64,000 bases of DNA. It comes from Betaproteobacteria bacterium (GTDB taxonomy: Bacteria; Pseudomonadota; Gammaproteobacteria; Burkholderiales; CAIKXV01). The stretch lies in contig CANGYF010000004.1 of assembly GCA_947458265.1 (NCBI GenBank), positions 62,001 through 126,000 on the forward strand. Reading direction: 5' to 3'. The position numbers and the translations under genes are program-made. Positions within the stretch are counted from its first letter, which is position 1. Each line of letters opens with the position of its first letter. Below the pieces are notes generated by a model. That model worked only from the letters and a program-made list of their open reading frames with translations. It was not told the DNA's origin and ran no database searches. Positions 28,010 through 38,172 of this stretch are shown here, piece after piece.

Positions 28010-28594
28010 CTAGAAGAGCTCCAGCTCCCCTGCATTGGCATCCTCGACGACGTCCGGTACATCGATGGAGAAGTCGAGCGGCTGTGCGGGATCCGAGCAG
28101 ACGCAGTAGCTGACCTCGATCAAGGGCGAGGGATCGTCAGCGGACGACACGATGAACGAGCGTGCGTGGTCCGGATGCATCTCGGGTATCTGCACTCGAC
28201 ATCTCGCGTCAAGGAAGAACGGTGTCGACATGCCAGTGTGCTTGAACAGCGGCGTCAGTGCGCCCTTCACCGTGCCGCAGGCCCGGTTTATGAACTCGGC
28301 TCCCCCCTCGGCCATGACTTCCGGGTCGAGGACCTGTTCCGGGAAGTGGAACCTCCGGCGAAACAACTGTACCGAGGTCTTGGCGTCGATGAAAGTGACG
28401 AAGACGACGATCCGGAAGTCGAAGGCGGCGATGCTGCAGGTGACCGACTGGAACTGGCCGGACGGGATCTGAGTGCCCTGGCCGCCCTCGAGCGGCGCCA
28501 CTACGCATCGTTCCTCGTCGGGGAAGGAGCAGAGGTCGACAAGCGCCGCGCTGAGGATGCGATCGAGGCATTCCGTCGTACGGTTGTTGATCAT
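28010..28594 (-). CDS. CheX-like protein with C-terminal GELELF tail
   Basis: A 194-residue protein that fits the CheX/CheC phosphatase fold. It carries ExxN (Glu100, Asn103 in [10 protein letters not shown]) followed 22 residues later by Pro125, close to the ExxN-x22-P signature of CheY-phosphate phosphatases. The final residues are acidic and end [11 protein letters not shown]. The same GELELF terminus is found on the CheX-domain protein encoded at 29873. It is the last gene of the operon and overlaps the MCP-like gene by four bases. No signal peptide or membrane segment is visible. A role in switching off the CheY-like regulator is inferred. Confidence 0.68.
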
Positions 28595-29367
28595 CCGTGC
28601 GACTCGATCTGTGACATGGAGGTGCGCAACCGCTCGCTGCTCGCGCCGAGGCCGTGCACGGCGGTGCGGATCATGTTGCCGCTTGCCTGGAGGTCCTGAA
28701 ACGTGGTCGTGGTGAGCAGGTCGTTCTTGTCGAGAACCCTCTGATACTCCTTCGCGAGTTTCTCGGACTGCGACGCAAGAAGGCGGACGCCGTCGGCGAC
28801 GACCGCAAAACCGCGGCCCGCTTCGCCCACGCGCGCAGCCTCGATCGACGCGTTCAGTGCCAGCAGACCGATCTGCTTGACCACCCGCGCAAACTGCTCG
28901 TTGTGGCGCCTCACTTCAAGGTTGTTCGCCAGGATCGACTGCAACTCGTCGTGCCACCTCGAGATGGTCTGCAGTAGCCCCTGCAGCGCGCCGGCGTCGC
29001 TACTCAGCAAGGCGTGGTCTTCGTTGAACTGCCTGCAGGCCAGCGCCAGGTTGCGCGCAGCGGTTTCCCGCAAGGCCGCGAATTCGGCATCGCGTGATGC
29101 AACGACCCGGGCCTCCATCTCGGCGAGGGCCTCGTGGTGTGCCTGCGCCTGTGCCTCCAGGCTCGACGAAAGGCGTGCGATCTCGTCGCGGAGCTCTGCC
29201 TCGGCGGCATCGACGACATCCTGCGGCATGCGGGCGGAGAGCTCTGCCACCTGTGCGTCGCGCAGGGCGATTTCCTTGACCAGCCCTCGGCGTGCCCGCA
29301 AGTGCAGGTAGTGGAGGACCACAAGGGCGAGAATCGCGCTGGCGCATGATCCGATAAGCAAGTACAT
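28591..29367 (-). CDS. Minimal membrane-anchored MCP-like signalling protein
   Basis: A 258-residue protein with a transmembrane helix at its extreme N-terminus ([21 protein letters not shown]), no periplasmic sensor, a long Ala/Glu-rich coiled coil (about 25-110) and the conserved tip of the methyl-accepting chemotaxis domain ([31 protein letters not shown] in outline, about residues 172-202). GGAGA six bases before the ATG at 29367 supports this start; an ATG at 29406 would add 13 residues and lacks such a site. Without a sensor domain it may act as a cytosolic-facing scaffold for the adjacent kinase. Confidence 0.8.
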
Positions 29368-29470
29368 CCCATTCTCCGATGTTGCCAGGGTTCCTGCGAC
29401 CGACATCTGCCGTGCGGGCCGCCGGGAAGGCGGCCGGAGCCGCTCCCCCCGCAGGCATGCCGACCGCGAA

Positions 29471-29836
29471 CTAGGCGGCCAGCTTCTTGAGCGATGCGAG
29501 CACCGCCGGACCGTTGAACGGCTTGACGATCCAGCCCTTGATGCCAGCAGCCTTGCCCCGCTCCTTCATCGCCGGGCTGTTCTCCGTCGTCAGCATGACG
29601 ATGTTGGTCGTCGTGTTCTTCAGCTCGCTACGGATCTTCTCGGCCATGGTGAGGCCGTCCATGTTCGGCATGTTGACGTCACTGACCACCAGCTTGATGC
29701 CAGGGTCTGCCTTGAGCTTCTCCAGCCCATCCTTGCCGTCGACAGCAGAGGAGACCGTCAGTCCGTTGGCGGTGAGGAAGTCGCAGAGTTCGTTGCGTAC
29801 CGTGCCGGAATCATCGACGACGAGTATCTGTGCCAT
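29471..29836 (-). CDS. CheY-like single-domain response regulator
   Basis: A 121-residue stand-alone receiver domain with every catalytic position present: Asp8-Asp9 (VVDDS), phospho-acceptor Asp53 ([12 protein letters not shown]), Thr83-Thr84 (VMLTTEN) and Lys105 (WIVKPF). No output domain follows. In its operon it is the only complete receiver and so the probable phosphate acceptor of the CheA-like kinase at 30.9 kb and the substrate of the two CheX-like proteins on either side. Confidence 0.93.
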
Positions 29837-29872
29837 TGCATTGCCCCTTTTCTGGGTTGTTGATGGTTGGGT

Positions 29873-30847
29873 TCAGAACAGTTCCAGCTCGCCGGACTCG
29901 AACATCGATTCGACCGCGGGCGACTCGACCATGTCTTCGGGGGACCAGTTCAGGTTGAAGACGAAGCGCTGGTAGACGTAGACCGGCTCCGCGTCGGGGT
30001 TCTTGCGGTCGCGGAACTGGTACTTCAGGCAGAGCTGCGGGTCCTCGGAGCCGAACGAGATGAAGCGGCGCTGGTGGTTGATGATGATCGGCACCTGAAC
30101 GGACGACGCGACGTTCGTTCCGCCCGTGTGGTTGGCGTAGCGGCTCTTGAAGCCGCCCCAGATCATGTTCGTCGCCTCGCCGAGGATGCTGTTGAGGTCG
30201 CGGAAGGTCAGGGCCTCCCCAGGGGCACGATCCCCCATGGCAAGCCCCAGGAAGTCCGATTCCCCAGTCTGGAGCATCATGTAGCCGCGGCACCAGTTCG
30301 TCTCGATGCCGATCAGCGTGAACACCTCACCGAAGATGATCCGGTCCTTGACGAGGTAGGGCGTCTCCATCACCAGGTCGCAGTGGGGGAGCAGGGCGCC
30401 GAGCGAGGCCTGCGTGATCTCGGCGATGCCGCGTACCAGGGCCGTCGGATAGACGCGGTTGAAGATCGACGAGTCCAGGCTCGCGCGCAGGGTCGACAGG
30501 TCGGCTGCCGTGTAGGCGCACCGGAACATCGCGGCGTCCTTTTCGGGTATCCCTGCGTTGCCCGACTGGCGGTCCCGGCGCAGGAAGATCGGAAGCTCCG
30601 GCCTGAGATCGTTGATGGATCGTGCCAGTGCCAGGCCCGCCATCGGGCCCCCGTAGTTCTCGTACAGCATGATGCCGCCGAGGTCGATGTTGGAGCCGAG
30701 GATCGAGAGCACGTTGGCTGCTCCCCCCTCCTGGGGGCGGATCGCGATCAGGGCGCTGTCTTCGCACAGCGCCTTGATCGTCTCGGAATCCTTCGCGAGG
30801 CTGTCTAGGACGAGGATCTTGCTGAACACGGTTGAAGTCGAGGACAT
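29873..30847 (-). CDS. Degenerate receiver plus CheX domain, C-terminal GELELF tail
   Basis: A 324-residue two-domain protein. Residues 8-120 look like a receiver (ILVLDS, MAGLALARSI) but the acidic pair and the phospho-acceptor are replaced (LYENYGGPMAG), so it is probably not phosphorylated. Residues 130-310 resemble CheX, with a good phosphatase signature Ser220-xxx-Glu224-xx-Asn227 (SILGEATN) and Pro253 at nearly the expected distance. The protein ends ESMFESGELELF, sharing its last six residues with the 194-residue CheX-like protein. GGAG nine bases upstream supports the ATG at 30847 over a longer open frame. Confidence 0.7.
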   Translation of the reverse strand: MSSTSTVFSKILVLDSLAKDSETIKALCEDSALIAIRPQEGGAANVLSILGSNIDLGGIMLYENYGGPMAGLALARSINDLRPELPIFLRRDRQSGNAGIPEKDAAMFRCAYTAADLSTLRASLDSSIFNRVYPTALVRGIAEITQASLGALLPHCDLVMETPYLVKDRIIFGEVFTLIGIETNWCRGYMMLQTGESDFLGLAMGDRAPGEALTFRDLNSILGEATNMIWGGFKSRYANHTGGTNVASSVQVPIIINHQRRFISFGSEDPQLCLKYQFRDRKNPDAEPVYVYQRFVFNLNWSPEDMVESPAVESMFESGELELF

Positions 30848-30878
30848 CTGGGTGTGCTCCGGAAGTGGGTGTCGGTTC

Positions 30879-33308
30879 TCAGGCGCGGGAACCGACCGTG
30901 TTGGTGGGATCCGCGCTGGCCGATGCGGCGGTGTTGGCCATCGGCGCCTGCCGCGCGCCGATGGCGCCATCGCCATGCAGGCCATCGACGCGCTCGCATA
31001 CCGCTGCGGGCAGCAGGATCACGGTCTCGAAATGGCGGAAGGGCGCGCCCTTACGATCGTCAGTGAAGCGGATCTCGATCGAGCCATGTTCCGCCTTGAT
31101 GAACTCGAGCGCCGCTTCCATGCCTACGCCGCGACCGGACACGTCCGTCACCGCGTTGGCTGTCGACAGCCCCGAGCTGAACACCAGTTGCGCGGCCTCT
31201 TCGTCGTCCAGCGTGCGCGAAGCGTGGATCAGCCCGACCGATGTGGCCTTCTCGCGGATCTTTTCGAGGGCGAGACCCCGGCCGTCGTCGCGCAATTTGA
31301 TCGCCAGCATGCCATCGGCGATGTCGAGGCGGATGGAAAGGGTGCCCGCAAGCGCCTTCCCGGCCGCCTTGCGTTCCTCCGGCGCTTCCAGCCCGTGGTC
31401 CATGGAATTGCGGATCAGGTGCGTAAAGACGTTCTTGACCATCCCCCCGACCTGGTTTCGCAGGACGATGTCGTTGTCCTCGATTTCGACCATCGGCGGG
31501 AGCTTCCCGAGGTCCTGGGCGAGCGAGGGCAGCGAAGCAAGGACACCATCCAGTACCTTGCCGATCGGCTCGGTACCCAGCAGCCGCAGGGTACGACGCA
31601 CCGCGTCGCGGGCGGCAAGCAGTTCGTGGATGTTGCCCGCGTTGACTTCCTCGAGACGATGCAAGGTTTCCGCGATCTGCTCGCGGTCGACCATCAGGAA
31701 GCGTTCCACGCCGGCACGGCGGCCCGGGCCGCGGCGGCCCAGGCTGACCGAATTGATCTTCGCGTAGTGCTCGATCGAAGCCTTGACCCGCGAGAGCTCG
31801 TCGAGCAACTGGGTCTGGTCCCAGGCGAGGCTGGGGCGCTGCTTGCGCAGTTCGTCGTAGGTCTGCTCGGCATCGTGCACGGTATCGGTCAGGTGCCGCA
31901 GACCGTACGTCCTGGCGTTGCCCTTGATCGTGTGCATGTTGCGGAAGAGCAGGGCTACGGCCCCCGGGTCGAAAGCGTCGTGCGCGCGGATCACGCGCTC
32001 GTTCTCGTCGATGAAGCGGATCGCGGAGTCGATGAACTCGTGGAACTTCTCCTGGGTGACGGCGAGGATCTCGCCGATGATCTCGAGCTCCCTCTTCTGC
32101 TGCTGCGCTTCGGCTGCGAGCGCGCGCAGTTCGGTGACATCGCGCACGCACAGCATGAGGCGGACCGTCACGTCGTTCTCGTCGGTGATCGGCGACCAGT
32201 TGAGATCGAGGAACTTCACGCGTCCGTCCGGCATCGACTTCTGGATCTCCCCGGCCAGCAGGTGCTCGTTGAACGCGAAGTTCATCGAATCCTCGCCCAC
32301 GCAGGCGCTGCAGGCCGTTTCGATCTGGGAAAGGCTGTCCGTCCCGAGGTTGGTGCTGGAGAAGATCAGGTCCATCAGGTCGCGGCCCGCGATATCCGGG
32401 GTTTCCAGGATCTGCTCGAGGTATGCCGAGTACTCGTGGTGGATCCTGTTGCCAGGGATGACGGTGAGAATGCCTTGCGGCATGTTCTGCAGCATCGACT
32501 GGATGTCGAGCGTCTTCTGCTTGAGCTGCTCCGAGCTTTCCTGGATCTTCTCGATCATGCTGTTGAAGGCGATGATCGAATTCCCGATCTCGTCCTTCTG
32601 CTCGACCGGTACGCGCCGGGTGAAGTCCTGACTATGTGCGATCTCGCCCATCGCGACCTGCATCCGGCTGATCGGGCGGGTTATTTGCCGGTACAGCAGC
32701 AGGCCGACCACGCCGAGCAGCACAACCATCAGGGTGGTCGCCCCGGCGGTTGCCTGGGTGGTCGCCGACAGGCGCTTGGCCAGGTTGGCGATCGCGTCGT
32801 CCTTGGCCCGGTTCTTCTCGACCCGGATCGCTTCGACGATCGATTCGATCGCGGTCTGGATCGGTGCGACGTTTCCGAAAAGGTTGGCGTTTGCCAGTTC
32901 ATGCTGGCCGGCAAGTTTCAGCCGGATCGTTTCGTTGATCGCGTCGACGTACCCTGCCAGGGTTTCCTTGGTCTCCTCGACGATGGCCCGCTGCTTCGGG
33001 TCGTTCGCCCCCGCTTCCTGGATCTTGAGGCTCTCCTTCAGCGGATCGAGCTTGGCGAGCAGTTGGTCCCTCAATTGCGGAAGCAGGGTGGGATTGGTCT
33101 CGGCTACGAAAACGTTCACGCCGAGCTGGACATCCTTGAGGCGGGAAACCAGGTCGGAGGAGGCCAGTGCGGTCGGGACGATCTTGCCAGTCACGAACCG
33201 TACCTCGGCTGCATCCTGCCTCGACTGGAGAACTGCATAACCGCCGATGGCGATGATTGCGGTAAGTGCTAGAGCGATGATCAGGATGATGCGCTGACTG
33301 ATATTCAT
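30879..33308 (-). CDS. Membrane-bound CheA-like histidine kinase (4HB sensor-HAMP-PAS-HPt-HATPase)
   Basis: An 809-residue sensor kinase. A first membrane helix (about 6-26), a helical periplasmic sensor (about 30-188) and a second helix (about 191-207) lead into a HAMP domain (RQITRPISRMQVAMGEIA). A PAS-like domain follows (about 270-395), then an HPt domain with phospho-acceptor His459 in NMHTIKGNARTYG, and a CheA-type ATPase with HLIRNSMDHGLE (N box, about 629-640), DDGRGL and VSGRGVGM. There is no DHp histidine and no CheW domain: the chain stops soon after the ATPase. It is the first gene of the five-gene signalling operon. Confidence 0.88.
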   Translation of the reverse strand: MNISQRIILIIALALTAIIAIGGYAVLQSRQDAAEVRFVTGKIVPTALASSDLVSRLKDVQLGVNVFVAETNPTLLPQLRDQLLAKLDPLKESLKIQEAGANDPKQRAIVEETKETLAGYVDAINETIRLKLAGQHELANANLFGNVAPIQTAIESIVEAIRVEKNRAKDDAIANLAKRLSATTQATAGATTLMVVLLGVVGLLLYRQITRPISRMQVAMGEIAHSQDFTRRVPVEQKDEIGNSIIAFNSMIEKIQESSEQLKQKTLDIQSMLQNMPQGILTVIPGNRIHHEYSAYLEQILETPDIAGRDLMDLIFSSTNLGTDSLSQIETACSACVGEDSMNFAFNEHLLAGEIQKSMPDGRVKFLDLNWSPITDENDVTVRLMLCVRDVTELRALAAEAQQQKRELEIIGEILAVTQEKFHEFIDSAIRFIDENERVIRAHDAFDPGAVALLFRNMHTIKGNARTYGLRHLTDTVHDAEQTYDELRKQRPSLAWDQTQLLDELSRVKASIEHYAKINSVSLGRRGPGRRAGVERFLMVDREQIAETLHRLEEVNAGNIHELLAARDAVRRTLRLLGTEPIGKVLDGVLASLPSLAQDLGKLPPMVEIEDNDIVLRNQVGGMVKNVFTHLIRNSMDHGLEAPEERKAAGKALAGTLSIRLDIADGMLAIKLRDDGRGLALEKIREKATSVGLIHASRTLDDEEAAQLVFSSGLSTANAVTDVSGRGVGMEAALEFIKAEHGSIEIRFTDDRKGAPFRHFETVILLPAAVCERVDGLHGDGAIGARQAPMANTAASASADPTNTVGSRA

Positions 33309-35517: not shown

Positions 35518-38172
35518 ATGATCCAGATCGTTTCCGCAGAGGCATCCGACAGCGAACTGGCAGCCGTGCGCCATGCGCCGCACTCCATCGAGGCGGAGCA
35601 GTCCGTGCTCGGCGGCCTGCTGCTCGACAACAACGCCTGGGAGCGCATCGCCGATCTGCTCGGCGAGGGCGACTTCTACAGCGCCGACCATCGCACCATC
35701 TACAAGCACCTGGTCAAGCTGGTCGACGAGTCGCGCCCGGCGGACGTGATCACCGTGGCCGAGAGTCTCGAGCGTAACGGGGAACTTGCGCGCGTCGGCG
35801 GTCTGCCCTACCTGTCCGCGCTCGCCAACAACGTGCCGACCGCGGCCAATATCCGGCGCTATGCCGAGATCGTGCGCGAGCGGTCGCTGATGCGCGAACT
35901 CGCCCGCGTCGGCACCGAGATCGCCGAGTCCGCCTATGCGCCCAGCGGACGCGCGGCGAAGGTGCTGCTCGACGAGGCCGAAGCCAAGGTGCTGGCGATC
36001 GCCGAGGCGGGCAAGCGCACGTCGCAGGGCTTCCTCGACCTGAATTCGCTGGTGGCCGAGGTGGTCGAGCGGATCGACCAGTTGCATGCGCGCGGCGACA
36101 GCAGCGATGTCACCGGCGTGGCGACCGGCTTCGCCGACCTCGACCGGGATACGTCGGGCATGCAGGCGGGCGACCTGATCATCGTCGCTGGCCGTCCCAG
36201 CATGGGCAAGACCGCGCTCGCGCTGAACATGGCCGAGCATGTCGCCCTGACCGAGAAGCTGCCGGTAGTCATCTTCTCCATGGAGATGTCCGGTACCCAG
36301 CTCGTGATGCGACTGATCGGTTCCTCAGGCCGCATCGACCAGCAGCGGCTGCGCAGCGGCCGGCTGGAGGATTCGGACTGGCCGCGGCTGACCAGCGCGA
36401 TCGGTGCGTTGACCCAGGCACCGATCCTGATCGACGAGACCGGTGCGCTGACCGCGCTCGAACTGCGCTCGCGCGCGCGACGCGCGGCACGCAGTTTCGG
36501 CGGACGGCTCGGGCTGATCGTGATCGACTACCTGCAGCTGATGAGTTCCAGCGGCAGCGAGAACCGCGCCACCGAGATCTCCGAGATCTCGCGCTCGCTG
36601 AAGGCGCTGGCGAAGGAACTGCAGGTGCCGGTGATCGCACTGTCGCAGCTGAACCGAAGCCTCGAGCAGCGGCCGAACAAGCGGCCGGTGATGTCGGACC
36701 TGAGGGAGTGCGTGGTTGGAGACACGCTGGTGCTGTGCACCGACGGACGGCGCGTCCCCATCCGGGACCTGGTCGGCAGCACCCCCGAGGTCTGGGCGGT
36801 CGATGAAGCACGGCGCATCGTCGCGGCGCGTTCGGATGCGGTCTGGTGCGTCGGTCTCAAGCCGGTGTTCGACATGCATACCGCTAGCGGACGCCGGCTG
36901 CGCTCGACCGGCCAGCATCGGGTCTTGACCGGCACCGGATGGCAGGTGCTCGACGACCTGCGGCCGGGCATGCGCGTCGCGCTGGCCCGCGCCGTGCCGG
37001 CGCCTGCAGAACCGGTGGAGTGGCCGGATCATGAGATCGTGCTTCTGGGTCATCTCGTCGGCGACGGCAGTTACCTGCCGCACCAGCCTTTGCGCTACAC
37101 GACGGCCAGCGAGGAAAACAGCAGCGCGGTGACGGCAGCCGCGACCGCATTTGGCGCACGCGTGTCGCGCCATGCCGGGCGTGGTGCATGGCATCAGCTG
37201 GTGATCGCCGGCAACGGCAACCGCTGGCACCCGGCAGGTGTCGGACGCTGGCTGCGCGAACTGGGGCTGTTCGGCCAGCGTTCGCATGACAAGCATCTTC
37301 CGGCGGCCGTGTTCTCGTTCGGTGATCGCCAGGTTGGCCTTCTGCTGCGCCACCTGTGGGCGACCGACGGCTGTATCTCGCTGCGCAAGCCTGGCCAGAA
37401 GGGCGCGTCGAGGGTCTACTTCGCCACCTGCAGCGAGCGGCTGGCGCACGACGTGGCGGCGCTGCTGCTCAGGCTGGGTATCGTCGCGCGCCTGCGCAAG
37501 GTGGTCCAGCGGAATGCGCGCCCCGTGTACAACGTAGATGTGTCCGGCGGCGCGCAGCAGCGGGCTTTCCTCGATCGGGTTGGCGCATTCGGCCCGAGGG
37601 TGGCGCCGGCCCGGGCGCTCGCCGACAGACTGGCGGCGGCAAAGATGAATACCAACGTCGACACGTTGCCGCTGGAGGTGTTCGAACAGGTGCAGGCGCA
37701 GATGCGCGCCCAGGGCGTATCGCAGCGCCGGATGGCTTCGATGCGCGGCACGTCGTACGGCGGTTCGTCGCATTTCCGCTTCGCACCGTCCAGGGATGTG
37801 GTTGCCGACTACGCTCACCACCTCGGGGACGAGGACCTCGCACGCAAGGCTACCAGCGACCTGTTCTGGGACACGGTCGTCGCCATCGAACCGGCTGGCG
37901 AAGAACCGGTCTACGATCTCACCGTTCCCGGACCTGCTTCCTGGCTTGCAGACGGATTGGTCAGCCACAACTCAGGCGCGATCGAGCAGGATGCAGACGT
38001 CATCCTGTTCATCTATCGAGACGAAGTCTACAACCCCGATTCCGCCGACAAGGGCACCGCCGAGCTGATCATCGGCAAGCAGCGTAACGGCCCGATCGGC
38101 ACGGTGAAGCTCACCTTCCTCGGCAAGCACACCAAGTTCGAGAACTTCGCCCCGGTGCCCGGGCGGTTCTGA
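35518..38172 (+). CDS. dnaB: Replicative DNA helicase DnaB with an in-frame intein
   Basis: Hexameric replicative helicase. The 884-residue precursor comprises extein residues 1-397 and 819-884 (463 in the spliced product) around a 421-residue intein. Extein motifs are the N-terminal HSIEAEQSVLGGLLLDN, Walker A GRPSMGKTALALN (about residue 225), Walker B-type LGLIVIDYLQLM, LSQLNRSLEQRPNKRPVMSDLRE and, after the intein, SGAIEQDADVILFIYRDEVY. Splicing would restore the DLRESGAIEQDAD sequence normal for DnaB. The gene follows the ribosomal protein operon, separated by its terminator. Confidence 0.96.
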   Translation: MIQIVSAEASDSELAAVRHAPHSIEAEQSVLGGLLLDNNAWERIADLLGEGDFYSADHRTIYKHLVKLVDESRPADVITVAESLERNGELARVGGLPYLSALANNVPTAANIRRYAEIVRERSLMRELARVGTEIAESAYAPSGRAAKVLLDEAEAKVLAIAEAGKRTSQGFLDLNSLVAEVVERIDQLHARGDSSDVTGVATGFADLDRDTSGMQAGDLIIVAGRPSMGKTALALNMAEHVALTEKLPVVIFSMEMSGTQLVMRLIGSSGRIDQQRLRSGRLEDSDWPRLTSAIGALTQAPILIDETGALTALELRSRARRAARSFGGRLGLIVIDYLQLMSSSGSENRATEISEISRSLKALAKELQVPVIALSQLNRSLEQRPNKRPVMSDLRECVVGDTLVLCTDGRRVPIRDLVGSTPEVWAVDEARRIVAARSDAVWCVGLKPVFDMHTASGRRLRSTGQHRVLTGTGWQVLDDLRPGMRVALARAVPAPAEPVEWPDHEIVLLGHLVGDGSYLPHQPLRYTTASEENSSAVTAAATAFGARVSRHAGRGAWHQLVIAGNGNRWHPAGVGRWLRELGLFGQRSHDKHLPAAVFSFGDRQVGLLLRHLWATDGCISLRKPGQKGASRVYFATCSERLAHDVAALLLRLGIVARLRKVVQRNARPVYNVDVSGGAQQRAFLDRVGAFGPRVAPARALADRLAAAKMNTNVDTLPLEVFEQVQAQMRAQGVSQRRMASMRGTSYGGSSHFRFAPSRDVVADYAHHLGDEDLARKATSDLFWDTVVAIEPAGEEPVYDLTVPGPASWLADGLVSHNSGAIEQDADVILFIYRDEVYNPDSADKGTAELIIGKQRNGPIGTVKLTFLGKHTKFENFAPVPGRF
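36709..37971 (+). mobile_element. DnaB intein with LAGLIDADG homing endonuclease
   Basis: A 421-residue protein intron inserted between Glu397 and the downstream Ser of DnaB. It starts with Cys (CVVGDTLVLCTDGRRV, block A), has block B RRLRSTGQHRVLTGTGWQVL with its histidine, two dodecapeptide endonuclease motifs LLGHLVGDGSYL and LLRHLWATDGCI, and ends VYDLTVPGPASWLADGLVSHN, with the His-Asn pair followed by Ser as the first C-extein residue. All splicing residues are present, so it should be active. The reading frame is intact throughout. Confidence 0.95.

Follow-up and report, generated by a model that had tools for sequence, protein, structure and literature searches.

A conserved five-gene chemosensory-like module built around a CheW-less membrane kinase, and the C-terminal tail shared by its two CheX-type proteins

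What does a kinase related to CheA do when its genes travel with a CheY, two CheX-type proteins and a receptor-like protein and no CheW accompanies them? This question is raised by five genes in a 64,000-nucleotide stretch of betaproteobacterial DNA (contig CANGYF010000004.1, C4:62001-126000), hereafter termed the window; all feature coordinates are positions in the window. Inspection of its open reading frames places the five genes on the minus strand, from 33308 down to 28010. An initial annotation, made from the sequence without database searches, had described them as a compact operon, and in this respect it is confirmed: five real genes make up a conserved unit. Whether they constitute an accessory chemosensory module, in which a membrane kinase would signal to CheY, two tailed CheX proteins would reset it and the output would likely feed the flagellar network, is a question on which our confidence is evenly poised. 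The tail shared by the two CheX proteins is a more interesting lead than the module itself. The features concerned are the following.

30879..33308, minus strand: membrane HPt kinase, 809 residues, with 4HB sensor, HAMP, PAS-like, HPt, P3-like and HATPase regions (Pfam, CheA alignment)
32793..33308, minus strand: 4HB_MCP sensor module of the kinase, residues 1-172 (Pfam, 30.8 bits against a cut-off of 27)
31779..32009, minus strand: HPt domain of the kinase, residues 434-510, with the predicted phospho-acceptor His459 at 31932-31934 (Pfam)
31047..31433, minus strand: CheA-type HATPase of the kinase, residues 626-754 (Pfam; N box, G1 and G2 motifs)
29873..30847, minus strand: receiver-CheX, 324 residues, ExxN motif formed by E224 and N227, reading frame open to 30985 (Pfam CheX above cut-off; predicted fold)
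29876..29893, minus strand: C-terminal tail GELELF of receiver-CheX (tail counts over loci)
29471..29836, minus strand: CheY, 121 residues, complete, with D8, D9, D53, T83 and K105 (Pfam Response_reg)
28591..29406, minus strand: MCP-like protein, 271 residues, a hydrophobic N-terminal stretch (by eye) followed by a receptor-tip hairpin (Pfam MCPsignal)
28010..28594, minus strand: small CheX, 194 residues, ExxN motif formed by E100 and N103 (predicted CheX/CheC fold)
28013..28030, minus strand: C-terminal tail GELELF of small CheX (tail counts; low-confidence end of the model)

The start of receiver-CheX was set at the methionine just ahead of the conserved part of the protein, and the interval 29873-30847 depends on that choice. 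With the chosen starts the intergenic gaps amount to 31, 36, 64 and -4 bases; a later methionine in the MCP-like gene gives the value of 103 reported in the initial annotation.

The neighbourhood is conserved far beyond the source genome. A scan of public genomes returned 343 relatives; the 80 retained come, to judge by their record titles, mainly from Betaproteobacteria, along with some from Gammaproteobacteria (such as Pseudomonas and Methylovulum metagenome-assembled genomes). All five families occur together at 72 of these 80 loci and at 81 of 89 loci overall, a count from which one locus (L046) was removed because it lies on the same contig as another (L065) and an orphan paralogue in the source genome (L013) was excluded. 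Chance is therefore no explanation for the grouping, and the compact single-strand unit proposed earlier holds across genomes. Among the eight loci that fall short, two contain receiver-CheX alone (L094, L111), one is without the MCP-like protein and small CheX (L061) and five end near the match. The order kinase, MCP-like protein, small CheX, receiver-CheX, CheY was found exactly and on the plus strand at 46 of 91 listed loci; the order of the window, kinase, receiver-CheX, CheY, MCP-like protein, small CheX, was found in the same way at 14 of 91, and the remaining loci are reversed, cut, contain extra matches or have the kinase placed after CheY. Word searches of an open-access library found no description of such a five-gene module in titles or abstract openings.

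Draws of genomes indicate how widely the module is distributed. Full-length receiver-CheX was present in 10 of 300 genomes drawn from the window's order, spanning 8 families, and in the nine besides the source genome the other four families lay nearby, the kinase of one (G129) being cut by a contig edge. Profile matches at E<=0.001 occurred in 28 genomes; in 18 of these they were weaker, covering 48-127 of 321 positions (best E 3.4e-5), and were dropped as partial domains. In a draw from the class 4 of 369 genomes matched, the source genome included; two of the other three possess all five families and the third has four, the kinase not being found in the stretch read. In a draw from the phylum 5 of 398 genomes matched, every one within the window's class, and the cluster is present in other orders of this class. 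Receiver-CheX was found in none of 10 other sampled species of the window's genus, several of these genomes being incomplete. Kinase homologues also occur in 58 records of a plasmid collection; those on 7 large records (Burkholderia, Caballeronia, Ideonella) cover at least 80% of the query.

A sixth conserved gene was sought among the 40 largest groups of neighbours and is not claimed: the two largest groups, LysR-like genes (18 of 89 loci) and genes for ABC-type ATPases (14 of 89), are common kinds in variable places, and the smaller groups are common mainly to close relatives. One MCP family lies near the cluster at 7 of 89 loci. Receiver-CheX also occurs at places where the stretch read holds none of the other four families, namely on contig 14 of the source genome (L013, 6270-7241), in L226 (5897-6871) and in the two loci with receiver-CheX alone mentioned above; the copies in L013 and L226 end in GELEFF. 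The receiver-CheX match in G129 (L046/L065, 1751-2722) contains one in-frame TGA, which may be a sequencing error or a sign of decay.

The CheW domain marks CheA and ties it to receptor arrays. The kinase of the window had been described as a CheA-type enzyme with its own sensor and without a CheW domain, and this applies to its relatives as well: by Pfam, neither the window kinase nor any of 38 homologues contains a CheW (P5) domain, and Hpt and HATPase are matched in all 38. The proposed assembly of domains in one chain stands for the 4HB_MCP sensor (residues 1-172), HAMP (204-257), Hpt (434-510) and HATPase_c (626-754), all of which exceed their Pfam cut-offs, but not for PAS, which is seen only below threshold (14.9 against 22.6 bits; PF00989 in 3 of 38 homologues). 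His459 lies within FRNMHTIKGN; the HPt motif and the N box, G1 and G2 motifs of the ATPase are each kept in 83 of 83 homologues. Alignment with E. coli CheA pairs residues 538-749 of the kinase with residues 281-494 (P3-P4), in a match that has an overall E value of 1.1e-33 and ends before P5; despite this alignment, Pfam H-kinase_dim is matched in none of the 38 homologues. The sensor ends differ (4HB_MCP in 28, 7TM-DISM in 3, GAF in 2 and TarH in 1 of 38), which, set against the constant Hpt and HATPase domains, indicates a variable input joined to a conserved core. Judged by its domain composition, with P1 and P3-P4 present and the CheW domain not found, the kinase is CheA-derived. In a survey covering 13673 CheA proteins, a CheW domain is reported in 100% of them (PMC10542144), so that by this definition the kinase is not a CheA, though it is plainly related.

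The CheY-like receiver had been called complete, and indeed each of the pocket residues D8, D9, D53, T83 and K105 is conserved in 85 of 85 aligned sequences. Its closest paralogue in the source genome is a CheY on contig 29 (47% identity), encoded just upstream of a CheA. The two CheX-type proteins proposed earlier are borne out by predicted folds of the CheX/CheC type and by intact ExxN motifs, which we take to be the catalytic motif of CheX and CheC and which are invariant in 89 of 89 receiver-CheX sequences and in 84 of 84 small CheX sequences with letters at this place (one has a gap). Receiver-CheX exceeds the Pfam CheX cut-off, and the structures most similar to its model (confidence 81) are those of CheX (Foldseek E 1.5e-8, TM to target 0.77), with receiver domains following at lower rank. 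A Pfam scan of small CheX gives no match; its model (mean confidence 89) resembles CheX/CheC structures (Foldseek E 3.2e-8, TM about 0.5). The solved CheX-CheY complex 3hzh is among the structural matches of both. The predicted receiver fold at the N-terminus of receiver-CheX is absent from the initial annotation. In this half, Glu63 (85 of 89) and Arg90 (89 of 89) appear to occupy the positions of the phospho-accepting Asp and of the Thr, respectively; since the phospho-site thus appears to be replaced, this part of the protein probably serves to regulate or position the enzyme and not to accept phosphate.

The MCP-like protein had been called sensor-less, which agrees with the Pfam result: MCPsignal (E 5.5e-19, 69.1 bits against a cut-off of 34.6) is the only family above cut-off in its 271 residues, and neither a ligand-binding domain nor HAMP was found. 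At the receptor tip N185, E189 and G194 are each found in 85 of 85 sequences and R192 in 84 of 85. A near-invariant NDLxTTxTFQDxQ lies in the descending hairpin arm; within it, FQD resembles the motif of CheZ-like proteins at a different spacing.

The two CheX families are only remotely alike and yet share the ending GELELF, which is found in 65 of 89 receiver-CheX and 57 of 85 small CheX sequences; the terminal pattern G[ED][LIV][ED][LF]F covers 81 of 89 and 64 of 85, and nearly all remaining ends differ by a single residue (M, V or an altered acid). Among 8265 other open frames of the loci the same pattern occurs in four, one fragment of small CheX and three GGDEF proteins. At the DNA level, 12 cluster genomes contain 34 places matching the pattern and one matching its reverse: 23 belong to cluster CheX genes, one to an orphan receiver-CheX, two to CheD, one to a CheZ-like protein, three to MCP-CheZ-like proteins and two to GGDEF proteins, and two were judged spurious. 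The 300 genomes of the order contain 219 tail matches against 25 for the reversed pattern. Genomes with FliM and without the cluster have the tail in 109 of 189 cases (172 matches, compared with 9 control matches over all FliM-positive genomes), genomes without FliM in 15 of 101 (19 matches, close to the 16 control matches there); with kinship ignored, the difference between these two groups has a Fisher p of 4.6e-13. A subset of the matches, 26 newly read loci, comprises six CheD, eight MCP-CheZ-like, three CheZ-like, two GGDEF and one cluster protein, besides six spurious places or places without an open frame. Names of tail bearers were mostly given by eye; nine bearers not belonging to the cluster were compared with Pfam and five of these also with NCBIfam. 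None of six versions of the tail sequence was found in any paper of the open-access library.

Tailed genes of the CheZ-like and MCP-CheZ-like kinds stand next to CheY: 14 of 15 examined directly precede a gene for a CheY that shares 40.5-50.5% identity with the cluster CheY, seven of these pairs coming from the window's genus. The source genome itself encodes on contig 29 (L164, 4209-5432, minus strand) an MCP-CheZ-like membrane protein that ends in GDVDLF and lies directly upstream of cheY, followed by cheA, and in six sampled genomes of the genus (L197-L202) cheY again comes after a tailed gene. Three of four chemotaxis loci without the exact pattern have near variants in the same place (SDIELF, GSIDLF, SLTFF). 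By eye, the CheZ-like bearers contain an FQDxTxQ-like motif. CheD proteins end in GEIDLF, GEVDLF, GDIDLF or GDIELF (L166, 2139-2750; L167, 2491-3096; L186, L188, L191, L192, L194, L195); the one in L166 is a CheD by Pfam and NCBIfam, the others were named by eye. Their tails hint that receptor deamidation may be coupled directly to the partner of the tail. Tailed GGDEF diguanylate cyclases are encoded in L169 (2178-3278), L173 (5673-6773), L177 (1216-2217) and L185 (490-1521); those in L173 and L185 directly follow a receiver gene, and the stretches read for L169 and L177 revealed no receiver.

CheX and CheZ act on phosphorylated CheY. Among the peptides that dock on CheY, the best known are the CheZ C-terminus and the FliM N-terminus, both of them short, acidic and hydrophobic. 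By analogy, and as the parsimonious reading, the tail most likely docks the proteins that carry it on CheY in the manner of the CheZ C-terminus, and the low confidence of the last 14 residues in the small CheX model fits a flexible docking peptide. Several observations weigh against this. In the receiver-CheX model the tail forms a strand with a confidence of 87 and may thus pack on its own protein. Its presence on CheD and GGDEF cyclases means that it is not a feature of phosphatases only. The tailed MCP-CheZ-like gene of L170 adjoins no CheY of the kind described above, in L175 no tailed gene was found before CheY, and Pfam CheZ stays below its cut-off in CheZ-like bearers (18.8 and 15.7 against 30.7 bits) and is not matched in L168, L178 and L189. 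The tail could instead tether proteins for CheR or CheB as the receptor pentapeptide NWETF does, or serve as a tag for localisation or turnover. It resembles NWETF in its place at the extreme C-terminus, in the acid at position -2 and in the final Phe, and CheD acts on receptors; the tail, however, has no Trp at -3, and among its bearers are CheX and CheZ-like proteins, which are expected to act on CheY, and genes next to cheY, which makes this explanation somewhat unlikely. Going further, we tentatively propose, with less than even confidence, that G[ED]x[ED]xF-COOH is a general CheY docking code of Betaproteobacteria and their relatives, which would wire phosphatases, CheD and cyclic di-GMP (c-di-GMP) cyclases to phosphorylated CheY and so provide feedback to receptor adaptation and c-di-GMP synthesis, the CheW-less module being a side input.

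For the module as a whole we infer the following pathway by analogy with the established chemistry of CheA and CheX. The membrane kinase would sense directly through its own sensor domain, its CheA-type ATPase would phosphorylate His459 of the HPt domain, and the phosphoryl group would pass to Asp53 of the partner CheY. The two CheX-type phosphatases would reset CheY through their ExxN motifs, held to it by the GELELF tails as docking peptides, with the receiver half of receiver-CheX probably regulating or positioning the enzyme. The output would most likely feed the flagellar chemotaxis network. In this scheme the hairpin of the MCP-like protein probably serves to anchor or organise the module, a role that is a guess and a weak point of the proposal.

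The initial annotation had proposed control of something other than flagella and had noted that CheW is missing from the window. The latter is correct: the window contains no CheW profile match, and the eight matches of the source genome all lie elsewhere, the nearest at C4:171055, about 76 kb from the cluster; the single FliM of this genome is not near the cluster either. Both FliM and CheW, however, are present in 50 of 50 tested cluster genomes (10 from the draw of the order and 40 chosen among the 80 public loci), against a FliM background of 199 of 300 genomes in the order, which weighs against an output unrelated to flagella. All 10 cluster genomes of the draw possess FliM, with a hypergeometric probability of 0.015 if the genomes were independent and kinship is ignored; shared ancestry may account for part of the link, which counts against our reading of the output. 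A pathway insulated from chemotaxis and directed at biofilm, pili or c-di-GMP, found in motile species only because their genomes are versatile, would agree with the distance of CheW and FliM from the cluster in the source genome, with a kinase unable to join arrays by way of a CheW domain, with the PilZ-like gene (by eye) after the cluster in one genome (L010) and with the tailed GGDEF cyclases as a connection to c-di-GMP. We nevertheless regard it as unlikely, in view of FliM in every tested cluster genome, of the nearest CheY paralogue in the source genome beside cheA and of the tail in common with CheD and CheZ-like proteins; a non-flagellar output is unsupported and perhaps wrong. Very unlikely, in our judgement, is an arrangement in which the main arrays supply CheW and CheA in trans to the MCP-like protein, which would recruit them, and the module modulates existing arrays instead of forming a kinase pathway of its own. 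The conserved receptor-tip residues speak for it, as may the CheW found in all 50 tested cluster genomes. Against it, the catalytic motifs of the kinase are kept in 83 of 83 homologues as in an active enzyme, and QTN, part of the canonical receptor tip, is not conserved in the MCP-like alignment.

The preferred reading is an accessory module feeding the flagellar network. At this locus a CheA-derived kinase has turned into a stand-alone membrane sensor that still forms a conserved unit with a CheY and two CheX proteins. Their common tail offers a way to probe how phosphatases might gather with CheD and diguanylate cyclases on one messenger, and hence the coupling of chemotaxis to c-di-GMP. Elsewhere in the window, at 35518-38172, lies a dnaB-like frame with a long insertion that is intein-like by eye.

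With the CheA-CheW-MCP arrays of the F, Tfp and ACF classes the module shares a CheA-type HPt, P3-like and P4 regions, CheY, CheX-type phosphatases and an MCP hairpin. It differs in a kinase without CheW domain and without CheW beside it in the source genome, in having the membrane sensor and HAMP on the kinase, and in an MCP-like protein for which no ligand-binding domain was seen. Since the kinase lacks the CheW domain by which array kinases are recognised, the module is better described as a variant operating in the manner of a chemosensory system than as a member of an array family. Comamonas testosteroni, with its Che and Flm pathways (PMC6391922), is a further betaproteobacterial example with a second chemosensory pathway; its cheY1 and cheA have adjoining locus numbers, CheY1 is suggested to be a phosphate sink, and in Flm, of the Tfp class, a CheW-like adaptor accompanies the CheA-like kinase, CheX being unmentioned in the text.

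The CheX proteins of Thermotoga maritima, Borrelia burgdorferi and Vibrio vulnificus have the same fold and ExxN motif, but each operon of the module encodes a pair of dissimilar CheX proteins, of which one is fused to an altered receiver and both have GELELF-like tails. CheZ is comparable as a CheY phosphatase with a short acidic-hydrophobic C-terminus. Its docking element is a longer helix, whereas the tail described here consists of six terminal residues and is carried by CheX, CheD and GGDEF proteins as well.

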